Origin: a virus
Length of the DNA: 64,000 nucleotides
IMG/VR virus record: IMGVR_UViG_3300042691_040362
Span: 1 to 64,000 of that record
Strand: one strand, 5' to 3'
Part shown: positions 2,871 through 59,502 of the stretch, piece by piece
Layout of the letters: each line of letters begins with the position of its first letter
Numbering within the stretch: the first letter of the stretch is position 1
Notes under the pieces: model-generated
What the model was told of the DNA's origin: nothing
The model's database searches: none
The model's input: the letters and a program-made list of their open reading frames with translations, nothing else
Made by a program: the position numbers and the translations under genes

Positions 2871-5453
2871 ATGTATCAATCAATTTATTATGATTTTTCT
2901 GATTACACATATCATTTGAGGGACGACAAAACAGGTTGGACCCAATTTCAATTTCAACCTACATACTGGAAACGTATTGATGAATGGGACGAAGGTGCTC
3001 AACCTGTATTAACAGGAGGATATGCAGTGCCCACTAAAAAATATAGTAAGGACGATCCTAATTTATTAGAAAAGGATATCAATAAAGAATTACTTGTATT
3101 GAGGGAACTTTACTATAAATTTGATGATGTTGTTCCTTCATTCCACAATATAGTTTATCTCGATATCGAGATTGAAATGGGTGGAGCACTTACACCAGAA
3201 TATATTAAAGCAGCCCCAATGCCTCTTACCTCCATTGCTTTAATAGATATGACCACTAAAACAAAAATATGTTTTATTGTGGATAAAAGTAAGGAAATAC
3301 AAGAATACAATCAAGATGGTAAACATATTATTCCTTGTGGTTCAGAAAAAGAATTAATTAAACGATTCCTAGATAAATTTGAGGAACTAGACCCAACCAT
3401 TATTATAGGATGGAATAGTGCATATTTTGATATCCCTTACCTATACTTCAGACTTATAAAAATAGTAGGTGAAAATGAGGTAAAAAGAATGTCTCCAATT
3501 AGAAAAGTTGATTTCTCAGAATTTGCTGGTGAAATGCGGGTTAAAATTGGTGGTGTTAATCACTTAGATTATATGTTGCTTCATAAAAAATACATTATGA
3601 AGGAAGAACCCTCATATAAGTTAGGAGAAATTGGAACTAAATATGTTAAATTAGGTAAGATTGAATATGAAGGTAATTTAAATACGTTGTTTAAAAACGA
3701 TTTAAATGCGTTTATAGAGTACAATTTACGAGACGTTGAAATCATTGAAAAATTAGAAGAAAAGCTTAAATTCATTGAATTAACGGTAATGATTTCACAT
3801 ATCTGTAACATACCTTATGAAAGTATTTACTACAACACAGTAATGAATGAAGGTGCTATATTAAAGCACCTAAGACGTGAGGGTATTATTTCACCAAACA
3901 AACCTACTACTCACAATCCCATATTAAAAAATACTAAAGAAAGCTATGCTGGAGGATACTTACTAGAACCAATTCCAGGTCTATACTTTGACGTAATTGA
4001 TTTGGATTTTACTTCTCTATATCCTTCAATCATTAAATCATTGAATTTAGGTATTGAAACATTAGTGGGTCGCATTAAAGTAGATAACAATCCAACTTAT
4101 GAGCAAAACCATTCATTAGAAAAACTTAAGGAACGCGACCCCAATGAAGTCATTACTATTGAAAAGGTAAACAAAACCAATTACACACTTAGATCCGCAA
4201 CCATCAAAATAGGGGATCTAGTTAATTTAATTGAGAAAAACGAATACGCAGTTGCTGCCTCAGGAGCTATGTTTAGGACTGATGAAAAAAGTGTAGTTGC
4301 TAGTATTCTAGAGGGATGGTTCGAAAAACGAGAACACTATCGTGGTTTAAAGAAAACAGCAGGTAAAGCCGAAGATTGGGCAAACTATAAATTGTACGAT
4401 TTGTTCCAACATGCATTTAAAATCTTACAGAACGCAATGTACGGTACATTTGCTATTAATGGATGGAGGTACACTGATGGGCATTTAATTTGTAGTGCTG
4501 CTATTACAAACAGCGGACAACGTTTAACTCAAGAGTCAATTGAATTTGTAAACAACAAAATCAATACTGAAATAAAGCAAGAAAAACAAAACATATGCAT
4601 TTCAGATACAGATTCACTTTATATAGTACTAGGAGACCTATTAAACCATAGATATCCAAATTGTTCACCTGAGGAAAAAAACGACAAAATACTATTGTTG
4701 GCTCAGGAAATACAAAACGAATCTAATCACTATCTAGATGAATTAAGTAAACGTTTATTCAATACTGATTCCCACTACTTTCAATTAAAGCAAGAAGTAA
4801 TTTGTGCAGGTGTACTTACAACAGGTAAACGTAGATATGCAATGTATGTTACTAATAAGGAAGGTGTTGATGTAGAGGAATTGGATATGAAAGGACTTGA
4901 ATTAATGAAGTCCAATATGAATAAATTATTTAAGAAATTTGGAGAGGATTTTATTAAAAATGTATTGTTTGGTAAACCAAAATCTGAAATAGACAATGAT
5001 ATAGTTGATTTCTACAAAACACTAAAAACACTAGATCCTAAAAAATTAGGTAAACCAACAGGTGTAAAACAAATCCATAACTATCACATACCAGCAATGG
5101 CTGGAGACATGTTTAGTAGATTTAGAATTAAAGCACCAGCAAACACTAAAGCCGCTGTTCGCTATAACGATTTACTTAGGTTTAAAAAACTAGATAAAAA
5201 ATATGAATCAATTATTGAAGGCGATAAAATATTTATTGTTAACTTAAAACAAAATCCATACAATCTAGAAACAATTGGCCTACCAAATGCTCAAGTACCA
5301 TTAGAAATTGAGGAATTTGTTAAAACCTATATTGATGTTGAGGAAATATTTGATTCATTGTTAGCAAATAAATTAAAGTCATTGTATCTTGATCTTTCTT
5401 GGGATTTTCCTCCCTTGAATCCAAATGTAAACAAATTCTTTGCATTTAATTAG
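2871..5453 (+). CDS. Family B DNA polymerase (T4 gp43-like)
   Basis: This 860-aa protein carries all core motifs of a replicative family B polymerase. The 3'-5' exonuclease domain has Exo I DIE (residues 98-100), Exo II GWNSAYFD (180-187) and Exo III YNLRD (284-288). The polymerase domain has motif A DFTSLYPS (379-386), motif B KILQNAMYG (517-525) and motif C DTDS (579-582). All catalytic carboxylates are present, so it should be an active proofreading polymerase. Size and neighbours (clamp, clamp loader) match the T4 gp43 group. Its TAG stop is also the first triplet of the next promoter box. Confidence 0.97.
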   Translation: MYQSIYYDFSDYTYHLRDDKTGWTQFQFQPTYWKRIDEWDEGAQPVLTGGYAVPTKKYSKDDPNLLEKDINKELLVLRELYYKFDDVVPSFHNIVYLDIEIEMGGALTPEYIKAAPMPLTSIALIDMTTKTKICFIVDKSKEIQEYNQDGKHIIPCGSEKELIKRFLDKFEELDPTIIIGWNSAYFDIPYLYFRLIKIVGENEVKRMSPIRKVDFSEFAGEMRVKIGGVNHLDYMLLHKKYIMKEEPSYKLGEIGTKYVKLGKIEYEGNLNTLFKNDLNAFIEYNLRDVEIIEKLEEKLKFIELTVMISHICNIPYESIYYNTVMNEGAILKHLRREGIISPNKPTTHNPILKNTKESYAGGYLLEPIPGLYFDVIDLDFTSLYPSIIKSLNLGIETLVGRIKVDNNPTYEQNHSLEKLKERDPNEVITIEKVNKTNYTLRSATIKIGDLVNLIEKNEYAVAASGAMFRTDEKSVVASILEGWFEKREHYRGLKKTAGKAEDWANYKLYDLFQHAFKILQNAMYGTFAINGWRYTDGHLICSAAITNSGQRLTQESIEFVNNKINTEIKQEKQNICISDTDSLYIVLGDLLNHRYPNCSPEEKNDKILLLAQEIQNESNHYLDELSKRLFNTDSHYFQLKQEVICAGVLTTGKRRYAMYVTNKEGVDVEELDMKGLELMKSNMNKLFKKFGEDFIKNVLFGKPKSEIDNDIVDFYKTLKTLDPKKLGKPTGVKQIHNYHIPAMAGDMFSRFRIKAPANTKAAVRYNDLLRFKKLDKKYESIIEGDKIFIVNLKQNPYNLETIGLPNAQVPLEIEEFVKTYIDVEEIFDSLLANKLKSLYLDLSWDFPPLNPNVNKFFAFN

Positions 5454-35328: not shown

Positions 35329-36699
35329 ATGGCAAAAGTCTTAGAAAATATATTTAATCCTTCAATAGATGAAATAGCTCAAACATACACAATTCAGTCT
35401 TGGCACGTTTCACAATCAGTAGATGCATTAACGGCTGCTGAGGCATATGATATTTCAATTAGTGGATCTTTAAATGTTACCGGATCATCAAATGTAACTG
35501 GTTCACTATCAGTAATAGGAACTGTAGTAAACGGAACTGTAGGTAATGATGCAGCTGGACTATTCTCACATGCTGAAGGTAACTCTTCAATAGCATCAGG
35601 TAGTTATTCTCATGCTGAAGGAGAATCTACTCAAGCAGTTGGATATGCTTCTCATGCTGAAGGAGATAGTACTTTAGCCTCAGGTTCATATTCACATGCT
35701 GAAGGTAACTCTTCAATAGCATCAGGTAGTTATTCTCATGCTGAGGGAATAGGAAGTAAAGCAATTGGAAATGGTTCACATGCTGAAGGAAATGGAAATG
35801 TAGCTAGCGGAAATGGTTCACATGCTGAAGGAAGTGCAACAATAGCTAGTGGTCCTTATAGTCATGCTGAGGGAACATCAACAATAGCTAGTGGTAATAC
35901 TAGTCATGCTGAGGGAACATCAACTATTGCTAGTAATAATAATAGTCATGCTGAGGGAGTAAAAACAATAGCAATGGGAATTAGTACTCATGCTGAAGGT
36001 TCTGGTTCAATTGCATCTGGTTCATTTTCACATGCTGAAGGGGGATTCACAATTGCATCTGGTTCATTCTCACATACTGAAGGATTAATTACTAAAACTG
36101 TAGGAATTGCTGCTCATGCTGAGGGAAATAGTACTCAAGCAATAGGAAATGCTTCACATGCTGAAGGTGCTTTCACTCAAGCAATAGGGGGTGCTTCACA
36201 TGCTGAAGGTTATTATTCGTTAGCTTTAGATTTTTATTCACATGCTGAAGGATATGAAACAACAGCTTCAAATTTTGCCTCACATGCTGAAGGAATTAAC
36301 ACAAAAGCTTTAGGTCCATATTCACATGCTGAAGGGAATAGTGCTATAGCAATAGGACAATATTCACACGCTGAAGGATTTAGTACTATAGCAATAGGAG
36401 ATGCTTCACATGCTGAGGGAACTAATACAGTAGCATCTGGTTCATTCCAAACAGTAGTAGGTTCATATAATGTTCAAAATAATACAGGCTCTAAGTTTAT
36501 TGTTGGTATTGGAAATTCAACAACTAGGAAAGATGGATTTACAGTAGATGCAGATGTTAATTTATCTGGTTCTGTTATGATTCCAACAAACACAGCAAAT
36601 CCTTCCTCTCCAAAAACAGGATCTATGTATTTCAACCCAACAACTAATTTATTATATATTTATAATGGTACAGCTTGGAAATCAGCATCTTTTTCATAA
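35329..36699 (+). CDS. HAEG-repeat fibre/adhesin protein, 456 aa
   Basis: After an N-terminal region (residues 1-80) the protein has 21 copies of a unit close to SHAEGxxTxASGxY with period about 14 residues, from about residue 80 to 370. This is the YadA-head left-handed beta-roll pattern seen in trimeric adhesins and phage tail fibres. The C-terminus (GSMYFNPTTNLLYIYNGTAWKSASFS) is the ending typical of fibre-like phage proteins in Bacteroidota. Probably trimeric and receptor-binding; no signal peptide. Preceded by CAATATTTATAATAAAA. Confidence 0.87.
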   Translation: MAKVLENIFNPSIDEIAQTYTIQSWHVSQSVDALTAAEAYDISISGSLNVTGSSNVTGSLSVIGTVVNGTVGNDAAGLFSHAEGNSSIASGSYSHAEGESTQAVGYASHAEGDSTLASGSYSHAEGNSSIASGSYSHAEGIGSKAIGNGSHAEGNGNVASGNGSHAEGSATIASGPYSHAEGTSTIASGNTSHAEGTSTIASNNNSHAEGVKTIAMGISTHAEGSGSIASGSFSHAEGGFTIASGSFSHTEGLITKTVGIAAHAEGNSTQAIGNASHAEGAFTQAIGGASHAEGYYSLALDFYSHAEGYETTASNFASHAEGINTKALGPYSHAEGNSAIAIGQYSHAEGFSTIAIGDASHAEGTNTVASGSFQTVVGSYNVQNNTGSKFIVGIGNSTTRKDGFTVDADVNLSGSVMIPTNTANPSSPKTGSMYFNPTTNLLYIYNGTAWKSASFS

Positions 36700-38439: not shown

Positions 38440-38595
38440 AAAATAACCTGTACCCTTGAAAAACTCGTATTGTTCAGAGAGGAGTCATATTCGTATATGG
38501 TACACCCACTAAAGCAGGTGTCAGTATTTGGAGTACACTTTGATAGATAAGCAGGTTAGTTCCGATATAAAAGGGTAATAGAATAAGGAGCAAAT
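38440..38595 (+). ncRNA. Structured RNA candidate with pseudoknot
   Basis: No ORF of useful length. AACCTG (38445-38450) is complementary to CAGGTT (38552-38557), and the adjacent TACCCTT (38451-38457) to AAGGGTA (38571-38577); the two helices cross, so they would form a pseudoknot. Inside are hairpins CATAT-TCGT-ATATG (38486-38499) and ACACC/GGTGT (38502-38521). Located between a promoter and the first tRNA-like element. Comparison with large phage RNAs that sit by tRNA genes (ROOL, GOLLD) is sensible but not established. Confidence 0.6.
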
Positions 38596-38708
38596 AGTCA
38601 GGTGGCGGAATTGGTAGACGCTCATTCTTATGTATATGTTATAAACGCATAAGATGATAAAAATCGAGATAACAGGTAGGTTTACAGGTTCGAATCCTGT
38701 CCTGACTA
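38596..38708 (+). ncRNA. tRNA-like element A
   Basis: 113 nt. Outer arms are tRNA: acceptor AGTCAGG/CCTGACT-A, D-arm GGCGGAATTGGTAGACGC (leucine-type), T-arm ACAGG-TTCGAAT-CCTGT. The centre lacks a 5-bp/7-nt anticodon arm. Instead CATTCTTATG and CATAAGATG pair as a long stem with one bulge and a 15-nt loop. Not a canonical tRNA. Confidence 0.7.
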
Positions 38709-38934
38709 CAATGAGTAAGAGATACTCAGCAGACTTGTCAATGTCTCATTTAAACTTGATAGGGTATTAGACTGGACATCCTGAAACGCCAGTCTCGTGG
38801 GAATAAAGGGACAGCACAAACCCTCCCAGTAGTGTGATTTTAGAGTTCATGTGGTAAGACACTAATGGTTAGAGTTTTTAAGAAAACAAAACCGTTAAAA
38901 TCCACTCACCAGTAATCTCAAGGTGGGGAAACAT
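38709..38934 (+). ncRNA. Structured RNA candidate between tRNA-like elements A and B
   Basis: A gene-free stretch rich in local helices: AGACTGG/CCAGTCT (38769-38795), GGG/CCC enclosing AGGG/CCCT (38799-38827), GATTTTA/TAAAATC (38836-38902), and a CTCACC/GGTGGG hairpin near 38905-38927. A 19-codon reading frame begins at 38710 but looks incidental. With 38440-38595 and elements A and B it makes a nearly continuous 570-nt structured interval. Confidence 0.55.
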
Positions 38935-39011
38935 AGTCAGGAGTGTAATGAGGCATGGTGCCAAGTCCTTTTAAAGGTTACTTATTACAGGTTCGAATCC
39001 TGTCCTGACTA
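38935..39011 (+). ncRNA. tRNA-like element B
   Basis: 77 nt, the closest in size to a normal tRNA. Acceptor AGTCAGG/CCTGACT-A and T-arm as in element A; the D-arm region is different (AGTGTAATGAGGC). A 7-nt loop TTTTAAA closed by CC/GG could be an anticodon loop (anticodon UUA), but the rest of that stem is imperfect. Confidence 0.62.
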
Positions 39012-39026
39012 CTAAATAAATAAATA

Positions 39027-39884
39027 ATGAAATTTAAACTACTAAAATTAATCCCATTAAATGTATTTCTAAAATTTAGAATATGGGTAATATGTAAATT
39101 CTTACCTTATCTTTTAAACAACGAAAGAACACCTTATTCTAAAGATGGATATGAATTATCATTTAAAGATGATTTTGATGAATTTAATAAATCAATTTGG
39201 CAAGACATGCCATATTTTGGACATAGATTTCATCCAGGCAATATTGTAAATAATGGAACTGCACCTTATCAATATCATGATTCAAGTTGTATATCTGTAA
39301 AAGATTCTATACTTAGATTAGAATGTAATGATACACCTACCACTATTAACTATGTTGATTATAATGGAGATTATTATGGAACATTTAAAATACCATACCA
39401 AGTTGGTTGGATACAAACCATGCCTAATACATTTCAACAAAAATATGGTTATTTTGAAATTAGATCAAAATCTCCAAATAGTGGTGGAACTTGGCCAGCG
39501 TTTTGGTTAGCATCTACTGAGGCTTGGCCTCCAGAAATTGATATATTTGAAATTTATACTTCTGATGGTCAAACACGATCTACCTCAACTATTCATTGGG
39601 GAAAAGATCCAAAACATCCAATGACTGGATTTGGTCATACAACACTACCGTTAAATTCTGATTTCTCAGTGTTTGGATGTGATTGGAATGAAAAAAATAT
39701 TAAAATATATTATAACGGTTGGTTAGTTAGAGTTTTTCCTACACCAAATGATTTTAAATATGAAATGAATATTATTATTAACAATGGTGTTCAAACTGAT
39801 GAAACAGGTTTAAATAGAGAAAGCATAATATCACCAAATTATTTTGAAGTAGATTATGTAAAAGTTTGGAAAAAAATAAAATAG
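39027..39884 (+). CDS. GH16 family glycoside hydrolase (beta-glucanase-like)
   Basis: 285 aa. GYFEIRSKSPNSGGTWPAFWLASTEAWPPEIDIFEIY contains the GH16 catalytic motif E-I-D-I-F-E (nucleophile E170, acid/base E175); LSFKDDFDEFNKSIWQ opens the domain and HWGKDPKHPMTGFGH and YYNGWLVR follow. A hydrophobic N-terminal segment (residues 9-30) may be a signal or anchor. It should cleave beta-1,3/1,4-glucan-type polysaccharide, possibly host capsule. It sits between tRNA-like elements B and C, and its TAG stop uses the first two bases of element C. Confidence 0.9.
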   Translation: MKFKLLKLIPLNVFLKFRIWVICKFLPYLLNNERTPYSKDGYELSFKDDFDEFNKSIWQDMPYFGHRFHPGNIVNNGTAPYQYHDSSCISVKDSILRLECNDTPTTINYVDYNGDYYGTFKIPYQVGWIQTMPNTFQQKYGYFEIRSKSPNSGGTWPAFWLASTEAWPPEIDIFEIYTSDGQTRSTSTIHWGKDPKHPMTGFGHTTLPLNSDFSVFGCDWNEKNIKIYYNGWLVRVFPTPNDFKYEMNIIINNGVQTDETGLNRESIISPNYFEVDYVKVWKKIK

Positions 39885-39967
39885 TCAGGTGTCTGAATTG
39901 GCTAAGTACCCTGAGCCCATCTTAGTAATGGGTAGGGGAGATACAGGTTCGAATCCTGTCCTGACTA
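39883..39967 (+). ncRNA. tRNA-like element C
   Basis: 85 nt. Same acceptor and T-arm; D-arm region TGTCTGAATTGGCTAAG. The centre has a perfect 17-nt arm CCCAT-CTTAGTA-ATGGG (would-be anticodon UAG, Leu CUA) but it is lifted by an extra CCCT/AGGG helix with a GAG/T internal loop. So the anticodon arm is elongated compared with a tRNA. Confidence 0.66.
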
Positions 39968-39984
39968 CAAAAAGAATTAAAATT

Positions 39985-40200
39985 ATGAAAGGTGCAATGA
40001 CATTAAAACATCGTAAAAATATTGTAAGAGAAGTGAAATCTCGTATCAGTAAAGAGATTAAGGATTACAACGATAAAGAAGTTGGACAACAAGAATCTAT
40101 TCTTGATGAATATATTGAAAAAGTATGTGTTGAAAAGGGATGGGAATTAGTTCATTTTTATTGTGAAGAAGGAAAAATTTTAGATAAGATATTAAAATAG
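39985..40200 (+). CDS. Hypothetical basic protein, 71 aa
   Basis: ATG at 39985 chosen: upstream codons of the frame lie in tRNA-like element C. Helical (LKHRKNIVREVKSRISKEIKDYNDKEVG ... EKVCVEKGWELVHFYCEEGKILDKILK). Its TAG stop includes the first two bases of element D. Unknown. Confidence 0.68.
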   Translation: MKGAMTLKHRKNIVREVKSRISKEIKDYNDKEVGQQESILDEYIEKVCVEKGWELVHFYCEEGKILDKILK

Positions 40201-40297
40201 TCAGGTGGCGGAATTGGTAGACGCAGTTAGTTATAAGCACCAATAAGACTTGTAACAACGTACCGATAGTATGCAGGTTCGAATCCTGTCCTGACTT
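40199..40297 (+). ncRNA. tRNA-like element D
   Basis: 99 nt. Acceptor and leucine-type D-arm as in A; T-arm GCAGG-TTCGAAT-CCTGT; discriminator T. The centre can fold as AGT/ACT, an internal TAG/G loop, TTAT/ATAA and an 8-nt loop, again an elongated non-canonical arm. Confidence 0.68.
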
Positions 40298-40311
40298 CAA
40301 AAATAAATAAT

Positions 40312-40548
40312 ATGAGACGATTAAACGAAAATGAGTATCTAATTTTAGAAAATTGGAAAAATGTTAAAATTGAAGATTGTGATTTAGGTATACAATTATG
40401 GTGTAATAATTTGGTTGGTAAGGGTATTTTGCGTAGATATAACAAACAATACATTTTAACAAAATTAGGAAAAAAACATACTGAGATTGGTAGACCAAAA
40501 TTTACATGGGTACAAAATGATTGGTTCGAAAGTGTTGAGTTATTATAA
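40312..40548 (+). CDS. Hypothetical protein, winged-helix-like, 78 aa
   Basis: RLNENEYLILENWKNVKIEDCDLGIQLWCNNLVGKGILRRYNKQYILTKLGKKHTEIG has the helix-helix-helix-strand-strand layout of a small winged helix (LVGKGILRR ... YILTKLG). Sits between tRNA-like elements D and E. Function inferred only from pattern. Confidence 0.68.
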   Translation: MRRLNENEYLILENWKNVKIEDCDLGIQLWCNNLVGKGILRRYNKQYILTKLGKKHTEIGRPKFTWVQNDWFESVELL

Positions 40549-40551
40549 AAT

Positions 40552-40659
40552 AGTCAGGTGGCGAAATGGTAGACGCTAGAAAGAATGTAAAACAATTGAG
40601 TAATCTCTGCCAGTATCATTCACAGGGGTTACATACAGGTTCGAATCCTGTCCTGACTA
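40552..40659 (+). ncRNA. tRNA-like element E
   Basis: 108 nt. Acceptor, T-arm and leucine-type D-arm (GGCGAAATGGTAGACGC) conserved. In the centre ATGTAA can pair with TTACAT over a long loop, or GAATG with CATTC; no canonical anticodon arm. Confidence 0.67.
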
Positions 40660-46389: not shown

Positions 46390-46755
46390 ATGGAAAGAAT
46401 AGAAATTAATGGAGTATGGTATGTTAAAGAAGATACCATACAAAAAGAAAGTACTATATTAGAGCCTACTCATTTTGAAGGATACTCTGTAGAAAATGAT
46501 GATTTTATTTTTGAAGCAACTATTATATTTAAAGATGATGGTACTCCTTATTATGGTATTACTATTGAATGTACTGATAAAAGATTCCCAGATAGGAATA
46601 ATTGGAAAGTAGAACATTGGGATAATGATAATTGGTTAAGAGGTATATTAAACAATAATCCTGATTCATGGAAAGAATTACCTGAAATGAGTAGTGGAGA
46701 TATTCATTTTTTACAAACATTTTTACAATATTTAAAAGATAAAGAATGGTTATGA
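46390..46755 (+). CDS. Hypothetical protein, 121 aa
   Basis: Strand-rich centre (FIFEATIIFKDDGTPYYGITIECTDKRFPDRNNWKVEHWDND) with many Trp. Overlaps the next start by four bases. Unknown. Confidence 0.72.
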   Translation: MERIEINGVWYVKEDTIQKESTILEPTHFEGYSVENDDFIFEATIIFKDDGTPYYGITIECTDKRFPDRNNWKVEHWDNDNWLRGILNNNPDSWKELPEMSSGDIHFLQTFLQYLKDKEWL

Positions 46756-47000
46756 AAGAAACACTTGAAGAAGCTGCTGAAAAGTATGCTAAACAATTTG
46801 ATTATGCAGAAGATTCTTCACCACCAATAGATTTTGTTGAAGGTGCTAAATGGCAACAAGAAAGAATGTATAGTGAGGAAGAAGTATTAGAGTTATTACT
46901 AAAACATCAATCTGATTATAGGAGTTCCGTAAGAAATACATCTCCTTTGGATTGGAGTTTTGATATTAAAGATTGGTTTGAACAATTTAAAAAGAAATAA
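46752..47000 (+). CDS. ETLEEAA-family protein, 82 aa
   Basis: Opens MKETLEEAAEKYAKQF and contains FVEGAKWQQERMYSEEEV and the ending WFEQFKKK. The same three blocks occur at 48481 and 54215, and parts at 47002 and 47813. A phage-specific small family of unknown function; the GAKWQQ block is also widespread in Bacteroidota phages. Confidence 0.76.
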   Translation: MKETLEEAAEKYAKQFDYAEDSSPPIDFVEGAKWQQERMYSEEEVLELLLKHQSDYRSSVRNTSPLDWSFDIKDWFEQFKKK

Positions 47001-47816: not shown

Positions 47817-48484
47817 AAAACATACACGTAATAAACCAAAACATCTACATCACTAATGATGAAGAAATTAAAGAAGGGGATTGGGTTATTTATAAAAATA
47901 AAGTTTTTAAGATAGGAATAGGTGATAATGAACTTTTTCATTTAAGTAAAAAAATCATCCTAACAACAGACCAAGATTTAATCAAAGATGGTGTACAAGC
48001 TATTGAAGATGATTTTCTTGAATGGTTTGTCCAAAATCCAAGTTGTGAGGAGGTTGAAGTACAATGCAGATATAATTTTTATGCAGGTCAAGATTTAACA
48101 CATTACAAAATAATCATTCCAAAAGAATCTAAACTAATTAATAACTGTCCTAAGTGTGGTTTAGATTTAATCATAAGAGAACATTGTACACCAATTTGTA
48201 CAGATATTGATTGCCGTGGTATTATACTTAGTAATGAAACATTAAGAGAATGGGCATCAAAAAAAGAATCTAAACAAGAAACACTTGAAGAAGCAATGGA
48301 AAGTTATTTAGATTCTCCTACGCCCCACTCATACAAAAGAGCAGTAAAATTTGGTGCTAATTGGCAACAAAAACAGATATTAGAATTTCTTTATTTAGAA
48401 ATAACAGAACGTAGAGATTATTCAGCATCTAAAATGTGTGAAAAGGTAATAGAGTTTATTGAACAATTAAATACTAAGAAATGA
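47813..48484 (+). CDS. Zinc-finger/ETLEEAA fusion protein, 223 aa
   Basis: The N-terminal part is strand-rich; LINNCPKCGLDLIIREHCTPICTDIDCRGI is a zinc finger with two CxxC-type pairs. From residue about 155 it continues SKQETLEEAMESYLDSPTPHSYKRAVKFGANWQQKQILEF, the ETLEEAA family block. So the protein looks like a fusion of a zinc domain with the family. Overlaps the next start. Confidence 0.75.
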   Translation: MKNIHVINQNIYITNDEEIKEGDWVIYKNKVFKIGIGDNELFHLSKKIILTTDQDLIKDGVQAIEDDFLEWFVQNPSCEEVEVQCRYNFYAGQDLTHYKIIIPKESKLINNCPKCGLDLIIREHCTPICTDIDCRGIILSNETLREWASKKESKQETLEEAMESYLDSPTPHSYKRAVKFGANWQQKQILEFLYLEITERRDYSASKMCEKVIEFIEQLNTKK

Positions 48485-48744
48485 AAGAAACACTTGAAGA
48501 AGCTGCTGCTAGACATTTTAATAAAGAAGATTTAGTTGAAGGTGTTAATATTCAATATGTACTTCAATGTGCTTTTATTGAAGGTGCTAAATGGCAACAA
48601 GAAAGAATGTATAGTGAGGCAATTGAGTTTGCTGAGTGGATTAGAATTAAAGATTTCCAAACTGCATCTAAAGATAATTGGATTGGTTTAGATATGAAAT
48701 ACTTTACAACAGAAGAATTGTTTGAACAATTTAAAAAGAAATAA
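48481..48744 (+). CDS. ETLEEAA-family protein, 87 aa
   Basis: MKETLEEAAARHFNKEDL ... FIEGAKWQQERMYSEAIEFAEWI ... TEELFEQFKKK. Same family as 46752 and 54215. Confidence 0.76.
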   Translation: MKETLEEAAARHFNKEDLVEGVNIQYVLQCAFIEGAKWQQERMYSEAIEFAEWIRIKDFQTASKDNWIGLDMKYFTTEELFEQFKKK

Positions 48745-54214: not shown

Positions 54215-54454
54215 ATGAAAGAAACACTTGAAGAAGCTGCTGAAGAATTTATAAAAGGTTGGGGTGGTTTAACTGACTCTAAAAATTCATTTATTGAAGG
54301 TGCTAAATGGCAAGCTGAAAGAATGTATAGTGAGGAAGATTTAATTAGTTTTGCACACTTTTATTTCACAGAAGAATTTAATTCAACAATGCAAACTTCT
54401 AAATCAACAGATAAAATTTTACAAGAATGGTTTGAACAATTTAAAAAGAAATAA
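54215..54454 (+). CDS. ETLEEAA-family protein, 79 aa
   Basis: MKETLEEAAEEFIKGWGG ... FIEGAKWQAERMYSEEDLISF ... WFEQFKKK. Same family as 46752 and 48481; the 5' ends of these genes are also very similar at the DNA level. Confidence 0.76.
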   Translation: MKETLEEAAEEFIKGWGGLTDSKNSFIEGAKWQAERMYSEEDLISFAHFYFTEEFNSTMQTSKSTDKILQEWFEQFKKK

Positions 54455-58979: not shown

Positions 58980-59049
58980 AGTCAGGTGGCGGAATGGATG
59001 GGCAACGTCAACTAATTAATAGATACAGGTTCGAATCCTGTCCTGACTA
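58980..59049 (+). ncRNA. tRNA-like element F
   Basis: 70 nt. Same acceptor AGTCAGG/CCTGACT-A and T-arm ACAGG-TTCGAAT-CCTGT as elements A-E, and the start of the D-arm TGGCGGAA. Only about 25 nt lie between D- and T-arms, too few for a normal anticodon arm plus variable loop (a CTA/TAG mini-hairpin is possible). Confidence 0.66.
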
Positions 59050-59053
59050 CCAA

Positions 59054-59203
59054 ATGTTGGCTGAAAAGTTAGGCTTTTGTTTCTATATAGGGAAGATGAC
59101 TAAGAAACAGGAACTAGAGTCTATTAGAGGTACAATCATCAGTATATCTCTTACAACATTATATAGTTCTTTGCATTTTTACTTACCTTCACCATATGTA
59201 TAA
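59054..59203 (+). CDS. Possible small protein, 49 aa
   Basis: An ATG 4 nt after tRNA-like element F opens a 49-codon frame (MLAEKLGFCFYIGKMTKKQELESIRGTIISISLTTLYSSLHFYLPSPYV). The gene-right-after-element spacing resembles the 38-41 kb array. Weak codon evidence; it may be incidental to a structured RNA. Confidence 0.35.
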   Translation: MLAEKLGFCFYIGKMTKKQELESIRGTIISISLTTLYSSLHFYLPSPYV

Positions 59204-59502
59204 TGGAACACAAAAGGGATCCTCACAGTAGGACAACGAGAAGTGAATGCTAGTCAGGACTGCTCTCAACCAAGTAGTGCTCAAAAACGCGCTCTTTACA
59301 CATATTAGTTACAACAAAAGCATTAATGCACCCGGAGTAATATACCGGTTTTTAAATTTTGACAAAAATGTTCCCGCCTCTAGTCGACCCAATTAGATGA
59401 GCAAATAACATGAGTTAATGATACAGCAAAACAATGTGAGTTAAATTTATACATAAAGCTGGTTGATAATTAGGTTGACTGGCTACCTTACTGTTCAAAT
59501 AC
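59204..59502 (+). ncRNA. Gene-free interval with long-range helix
   Basis: No credible gene. AGTCGACCCAATTA (near 59382) and TAATTAGGTTGACT (near 59467) pair over 14 positions with one mismatch and one wobble, closing about 70 nt. Another AATGTTG/CAACATT pairing spans the region just upstream. It could be a structured RNA following element F; alternatively an unannotated regulatory region. Confidence 0.45.

Follow-up and report, generated by a model that had tools for sequence, protein, structure and literature searches.

Phage elements with a constant transfer RNA frame and exchangeable centres, a possible family of small non-coding RNA genes

Clusters of transfer RNA (tRNA) genes in phages are usually interpreted as a compensation for codon usage. 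The stable RNAs C and D of phage T4, of unknown function, sit among the genes of its tRNA cluster, and phage P4 produces CI RNA, an immunity RNA that is matured by ribonuclease P (RNase P) and is antisense to its own phage. The bacterial Y RNA YrlA is a non-coding RNA (ncRNA) with a tRNA-like domain (PMC7790460), whilst GOLLD and ROOL are phage ncRNAs frequently located near tRNA islands (PMC12286853). In this work we analysed a stretch of 64,000 nucleotides (hereafter, the window) of the virus record IMGVR_UViG_3300042691_040362, which has 104,954 bp and carries genes for a family-B DNA polymerase, a clamp loader and GroEL. The window contains six tRNA-like elements with nearly constant outer arms and different centres, and these tRNA-framed elements belong to a distinct phage family with many unrelated centre families, several of them covarying.

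The elements of the window and their relatives in other phages

The six elements, designated A to F, are all encoded on the same strand; the lengths indicated include one discriminator base.

38596..38708 (+): element A, 113 nt; tRNA frame, centre with a 10-11-bp bulged hairpin and a possible variable arm
38935..39011 (+): element B, 77 nt; without the leucine-type D-arm, called Leu(taa) by ARAGORN
39883..39967 (+): element C, 85 nt; centre hairpin of 5 bp with a 7-nt loop, the first two bases finish the TAG stop of a GH16-like gene
40199..40297 (+): element D, 99 nt; centre hairpin of 8 bp and variable arm, the first two bases finish the TAG of the preceding open reading frame (ORF)
40552..40659 (+): element E, 108 nt; 10-bp hairpin in the centre
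58980..59049 (+): element F, 70 nt; the shortest of the six, with next to no centre

An earlier sequence-only reading had described these six elements, and all its positions and lengths were reproduced. The acceptor strand AGTCAGG occurred 15 times on both strands of the window (2.9 copies expected; 15 was reached by no shuffle) and GGTTCGAATCC six times (0.4 expected), every copy of the latter lying inside elements A to F; no further copies of the 3' arm were present in the remainder of the record. The same reading attributed a leucine-type D-arm to four elements, which was exact in A and D and close in E, but only partial in C and F and absent in B. Its statement that none of them forms a standard anticodon arm was too strong, since element C can form CCCAU-CUUAGUA-AUGGG, with UAG, although ARAGORN still rejects C. 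When this program was run on the window, as that reading had proposed, B was the only element called, and a cloverleaf for all six was not obtained; in a scan of the whole window the Rfam tRNA model passed its cut-off, weakly, for D and F only. Standard tools thus miss most of the elements of the window. The call of element B as Leu(taa) is itself probably spurious, because on inspection the 5' half of B and the part close to its 3' end matched a member of one centre family (contig L145), the inner domain of that family being absent from B.

An exact scan with the 3' arm GGTTCGAATCCTGTCCTGACT (21 bases) matched at least 120 IMG/VR contigs, and AGTCAGG stood 50-160 nt upstream of nearly all the matches listed. 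Two extra scans based on different portions of the arms, together with a scan for the flanks of an insertion hotspot described below, enlarged the collection to at least 340 distinct elements in at least 231 contigs, in agreement with the suggestion that the family should be looked for in related phages. In the first 316 elements, length ranged from 53 to 170 nt (median 103.5), the columns of the acceptor (AGTCAGG/CCTGACT) and the T-arm were mostly 93-100% conserved and the columns of the centre were near random; T preceded A1 in 86% of them, and A73 and C74 were present in 91 and 97%, respectively. Acceptor stem, D-arm, T-arm, the GG of the D-loop and the TTCRA of the T-loop, all of them tRNA features, were found in the family. 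ARAGORN called 62 of the 340 elements, with scattered anticodons. When tRNA-like structures were scanned with the acceptor left free, the structures rejected by ARAGORN comprised 208 with an AGTCAGG-type acceptor and nine with a different one, vs. 50 and 160, respectively, among those accepted, a contrast that is valid within the loci fetched with the arms. The AGTCAGG-type stem sequence therein accompanies the non-tRNA centre. As for the window locus itself, two contigs (L343 and L344) considered as divergent relatives were discarded, L343 being the same phage (8,457 identical bases, so this region was assembled at least twice) and L344 showing only 35% to the query protein.

The family was nearly restricted to phages. 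The exact 21-base 3' arm was found in six contigs among the genomes of 84,980 bacterial and archaeal species, all from metagenome-assembled genomes (MAGs), four of them of Bacteroidota. Among 395 Bacteroidia genomes the 5' arm was found in none, and the relaxed 3' arm only in the MAG already matched; these figures argue against a host origin of the family. Both arms together occurred in none of 50,697 annotated phage records or 72,556 plasmid records, where only generic tRNA half-matches appeared. No Rfam family beyond the weak tRNA matches was obtained for the elements, and no description of them was found in the open-access papers searched, subscription literature falling mostly outside that search. 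One contig (L078) carries an ordinary phage tRNA-Leu(UAA) whose acceptor, ACTCAGG/CCTGAGT, is one pair off that of the family, and the frame is plausibly related to this tRNA.

Exchange of centres at orthologous sites and selection on the RNA

Ten contigs had an element inserted at one and the same base, most of the centres being unrelated, and the flanks were 87-94% identical upstream and 84-98% downstream. This hotspot is flanked by a tail-assembly-chaperone-like frameshift gene on one side and a probable minor tail gene on the other, according to ORFs read by eye. A scan with the flanks only listed 120 contigs, with 78 empty sites, 27 single and 14 double insertions and one unplaced; the empty site reads CGCAGATAG followed at the junction by ACACATTCC. 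Among the 114 contigs with enough flank, 75 were empty and 39 filled, the latter with 15 centre families in 18 configurations. Flank identity was almost the same for pairs with different centres (0.904), for empty-filled pairs (0.904) and for empty-empty pairs (0.906), indicating that the allele at the hotspot and its flank are nearly unlinked; pairs with the same centre had a mean of 0.929, near-identical contigs counted in. All inserts share one direction. In the doubles (L074, L282, L292 and others) the second element, and always the second, was a canonical tRNA with anticodon TAT in the AGTCAGG frame. Directly before A1, filled sites carry the box TATATTTGCATY, which empty sites do not. 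The -7 promoter element of Bacteroidota is TAnnTTTG, and TATATTTGCATY resembles it, so that the copies at the hotspot may have a candidate promoter of their own.

Three more replacement sites were found (L008/L155/L013, L036/L095 vs. L107, and L033 vs. L112), as well as a mosaic (L029) in which the D-loop insert matches one contig (L169) and the centre another (L179). One hotspot allele (L324) is an insert of 632 nt comprising an element, an ORF of 161 amino acids (MRTKIISAFPGTGKS, P-loop-like by eye, with no Pfam match) and a 3' half-element; an arm-bounded gene cassette of this kind is expected if recombination between arms also imports genes. At orthologous sites, whole centres are thus swapped for others, appear or disappear, or stand in tandem, with the same arms and flanks throughout; this bears out the argument that duplicated tRNA genes, had they drifted, would have changed at their ends as well as in the centre. 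An assembly artefact is unlikely as the cause of the swaps, because arms of about 26 nt are short compared with the usual assembly k-mers; moreover, the same centres recur across contigs and samples.

Stems are conserved at the RNA level, and selection acts on the RNA. With the 5' acceptor strand fixed, transitions in the 3' strand kept the pair in 27 of 30 cases (expected 4/7, P = 1e-4), and with the 3' strand fixed those in the 5' strand kept it in 12 of 13 (expected 3/7, P = 3e-4), which makes 39 of 43 overall; these P values are optimistic as sequences, not independent events, were counted. The T-stem was fully paired in 252 of 256 elements. Alignments of three recurrent centre families (A1, A2 and A3) displayed double-sided changes that keep the pair in 8 of 32, 8 of 28 and 2 of 27 pairs, respectively, some within the arms and several within helices of the centre. 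The folding of centres exceeded that of shuffles slightly but consistently (mean z -0.61, n = 316). None of 71 contigs with several elements had them in mixed orientation. Kept pairing, covarying centres and the single orientation weigh against explanations based on DNA only.

Replacement of the anticodon region, which the sequence-only reading had put forward, extended to nearly the whole family: an anticodon arm at the canonical place was present in only 5 of 209 centres (1.0 expected), and anywhere in the centre in 15 (13.9 expected). The family thus lacked the anticodon arm of a functional tRNA in nearly all copies, the exceptions being a small number of real tRNAs, among them the second element of L074. 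The complementarity of centres to their own phage was not increased in the DNA flanking each element (excess of the longest match 0.00 ± 0.06, n = 315). A role as regulators of the phage's own transcripts, also proposed earlier, consequently found no support in this antisense test, nor did an antisense or guide RNA directed against the own phage.

A small hairpin, (G)GGAATRAATACC, was also observed inserted in the D-loop of elements in L108 (element ending at 2320), L229 (2959, minus strand) and L223 (8897, minus strand); these elements have three different acceptor stems, and the letters of the hairpin's own stem differ yet pair.

Neighbouring genes and conserved non-coding RNAs

The following features adjoin elements A to E in the window.

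38441..38595 (+): ncRNA-2, conserved non-coding, flush with element A; AACCTGTACCC...GATAAGCAGGTTAGCTC...GGGTAATAGAATAAAGAGC
38710..38934 (+): ncRNA-1, conserved non-coding, fitting exactly into the space from A to B; CAATGAGTAAGAGATACTCA...AATCTCAAGGTGGGG
39027..39884 (+): GH16-like glycoside hydrolase gene, between B and C
39985..40200 (+): small ORF of 71 amino acids, between C and D
40312..40548 (+): small ORF of 78 amino acids, between D and E

At least ten further phages carry relatives of the conserved ncRNA-1, which measures about 205-255 nt. By reading of 11 copies, nine begin right after a recognisable 3' end of a tRNA or tRNA-like element and ten end where another one begins. The sequence of ncRNA-2 is variable in the middle and could form three interleaved helices; its relatives occur in L088, L020, L063, L133 and L116, in several of them with the end flush with the next element. 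Neither ncRNA had a match in Rfam. The GH16 gene and the two small ORFs are flanked by elements in the same layout as the L324 cassette; apart from GH16 in the window, Pfam gave nothing convincing for the cassette ORFs.

Across the collection, a same-strand ORF ended between -60 and +40 of the element in 162 of the 315 elements with enough upstream sequence, the AG of the element itself completing the stop codon in 24 of them, and an ATG ORF began at most 200 nt downstream in 164 of 292 elements (median distance 31 nt). The role as processing signals suggested in the sequence-only reading fits this layout, in which elements abut stops, starts and ncRNAs, but leaves the conserved, covarying and swapped centres unexplained. 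The tRNA shape may excise its neighbours as well as itself.

Several other observations concern gene content and intergenic regions. In L220 an HNH-endonuclease-like ORF (LELHHIDENRFNNRLENLQILCSNCH, by eye) lies between two elements, after position 3110. About 450 bases past element F (59050-59500) have no clear gene and are possibly non-coding, with no relatives in the collected loci. A repeat, TTAGGATTACAA...GTATATTTAA, is present at about 20 intergenic sites between 29109 and 61945, and at others from 2586 on; it precedes many genes, often right at the preceding stop codon, and looks like a phage-specific promoter. Three paralogous small genes (46752-47000, 48481-48744 and 54215-54454) share a near-identical start, ATGAAAGAAACACTTGAAGAAGC, and a later segment. 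A long ORF (35329-36699) has 42-bp tandem repeats and YadA-head-like repeats.

Possible nature of the elements and comparison with known systems

We consider the chances about even that the elements are small phage ncRNA genes in which a constant tRNA frame (acceptor, leucine-type D-arm and T-arm) surrounds a swappable payload, the whole behaving as mobile cassettes. Host RNase P would cut before A1 and RNase Z after the discriminator, perhaps followed by CCA addition; such a maturation would free a stable RNA whose ends are defined, and would simultaneously separate the flanking mRNAs and ncRNAs. The identical arms could provide homology for recombination, by which payloads would be shuffled and gene cassettes picked up. 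The payload would be a functional RNA of fast turnover, and its most likely target a host factor, for instance a defence that binds tRNAs or targets RNA. The payload probably acts against the host, because many alleles at one site among similar phages resemble counter-defence genes, and action on a host factor is the weakest step proposed. A more specific form, in which widespread, phage-only mobile "RNA morons" with a host-matured tRNA frame carry structured anti-defence payloads shuffled at fixed sites, is possible but doubtful.

Several points weigh against these ncRNA genes with a payload. Neither a host target nor a defence system was identified, and only the way alleles turn over speaks for the function of the payload; that the elements are transcribed, processed and given a CCA end is predicted from the sequence. 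The mean folding excess of the centres is small, and 179 centres were singletons at the clustering used, so that conservation of structure was seen only in a few families of five or six sequences. The closest relatives may be undersampled as well, as the scans were anchored in the arms and the counts of elements and contigs are lower bounds.

Punctuation alone, with arms acting as signals that cut polycistronic phage transcripts and centres as unconstrained filler, appears fairly unlikely. Mitochondrial tRNAs act as transcript processing signals, and RNase P and RNase Z recognise tRNA arms, which is what the elements offer; they adjoin ORFs and ncRNAs (24 of 315 finishing an upstream stop, and the close next start at a median of 31 nt), and ncRNA-1 is bounded by tRNAs or tRNA-like elements. 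Filler does not account, however, for the conservation and covariation that some centres show from one phage to another, a fixed acceptor sequence is unnecessary for either enzyme, and copies at the hotspot carry their own promoter-like box at a place that is empty in 75 of 114 relatives. The tRNA shape and an allele turnover like that of conflict genes would also suit decoys titrating a host effector that targets tRNAs (an anticodon nuclease, an acceptor-modifying toxin or a tRNA-sensing defence), with frame and payload matched to effectors. The near lack of an anticodon arm in place (5 of 209 centres) speaks against this role, a constant acceptor with a varied centre is not obviously suited to one enzyme, and no nuclease, effector or target was identified; we regard decoys as unlikely.

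Much less probable are two explanations that dispense with a selected RNA. Conserved ends, a variable inside and presence/absence polymorphism are common to miniature inverted-repeat transposable elements (MITEs), and the terminal inverted repeats TAGTCAGG/CCTGACTA of such mobile DNA might resemble a tRNA acceptor by chance. Yet orientation was single in each of the 71 multi-element contigs, changes in the stem retain pairing through G-U while T-stem and centre helices covary, and inspection of empty and filled hotspot sites revealed no evident target duplication, which makes this origin very improbable. Equally remote, and contradicted by the data, is a collection of decayed or chimeric phage tRNA genes with arms homogenised by gene conversion. 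The leucine-type D-arm, A73, the tRNA-Leu(UAA) differing in one acceptor pair, a second T-arm-like hairpin in some elements and the 62 ARAGORN calls among 340 elements would agree with decay; arms that stay paired and near-invariant in hundreds of copies, unrelated centres beside flanks about 90% identical and covarying centres do not.

The elements represent a large RNA family, not described in the libraries searched, in which the tRNA shape serves as a chassis and the non-coding centre can be interchanged, and they show signs of an allele swapping that is usual among genes for counter-defence or receptors. Should they be confirmed, the ncRNA genes with swappable payloads would constitute a new class of RNA cargo in the phage-host conflict and a natural scaffold to display RNAs in bacteria, and would account for many of the odd or pseudo-tRNA predictions obtained from environmental phages. 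The hotspot offers a direct test, with many natural alleles at one locus and empty sites as controls.

Among known systems, YrlA has a stem that binds Ro/Rsr and adjoins rsr. The elements differ from it in that their own 5' and 3' ends pair as an acceptor stem, their centre is hypervariable and they are borne by phages; neither elements nor ncRNAs matched a Y RNA in Rfam, no search being aimed at rsr. Like transfer-messenger RNA (tmRNA), they have tRNA-like ends enclosing a non-tRNA middle, but they are much shorter and the acceptor is without the G3-U70 alanine signal; no tmRNA was called by ARAGORN in the window or by Rfam. GOLLD and ROOL measure several hundred to more than 800 nt, are without a tRNA frame and gave no covariance model match in Rfam. 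MITEs are likewise short, with conserved ends, a variable inside and presence/absence, whereas the elements keep one orientation (0 of 71 contigs mixed) and pairing at the RNA level, with neither the either-orientation insertion nor the evident target-site duplication of MITEs. P4 CI RNA is a similar case of a small phage RNA possibly using tRNA maturation, from which the element centres differ by having no complementarity to their own phage in the flanking DNA. The T4 RNAs C and D, also RNAs among phage tRNAs, are set apart by description only; to our knowledge they are not a mobile family with swapped centres. Finally, ordinary phage tRNA-Leu has the D-arm, T-arm and A73 in common with the family, which carries in place of an anticodon arm, nearly throughout, a centre of its own.
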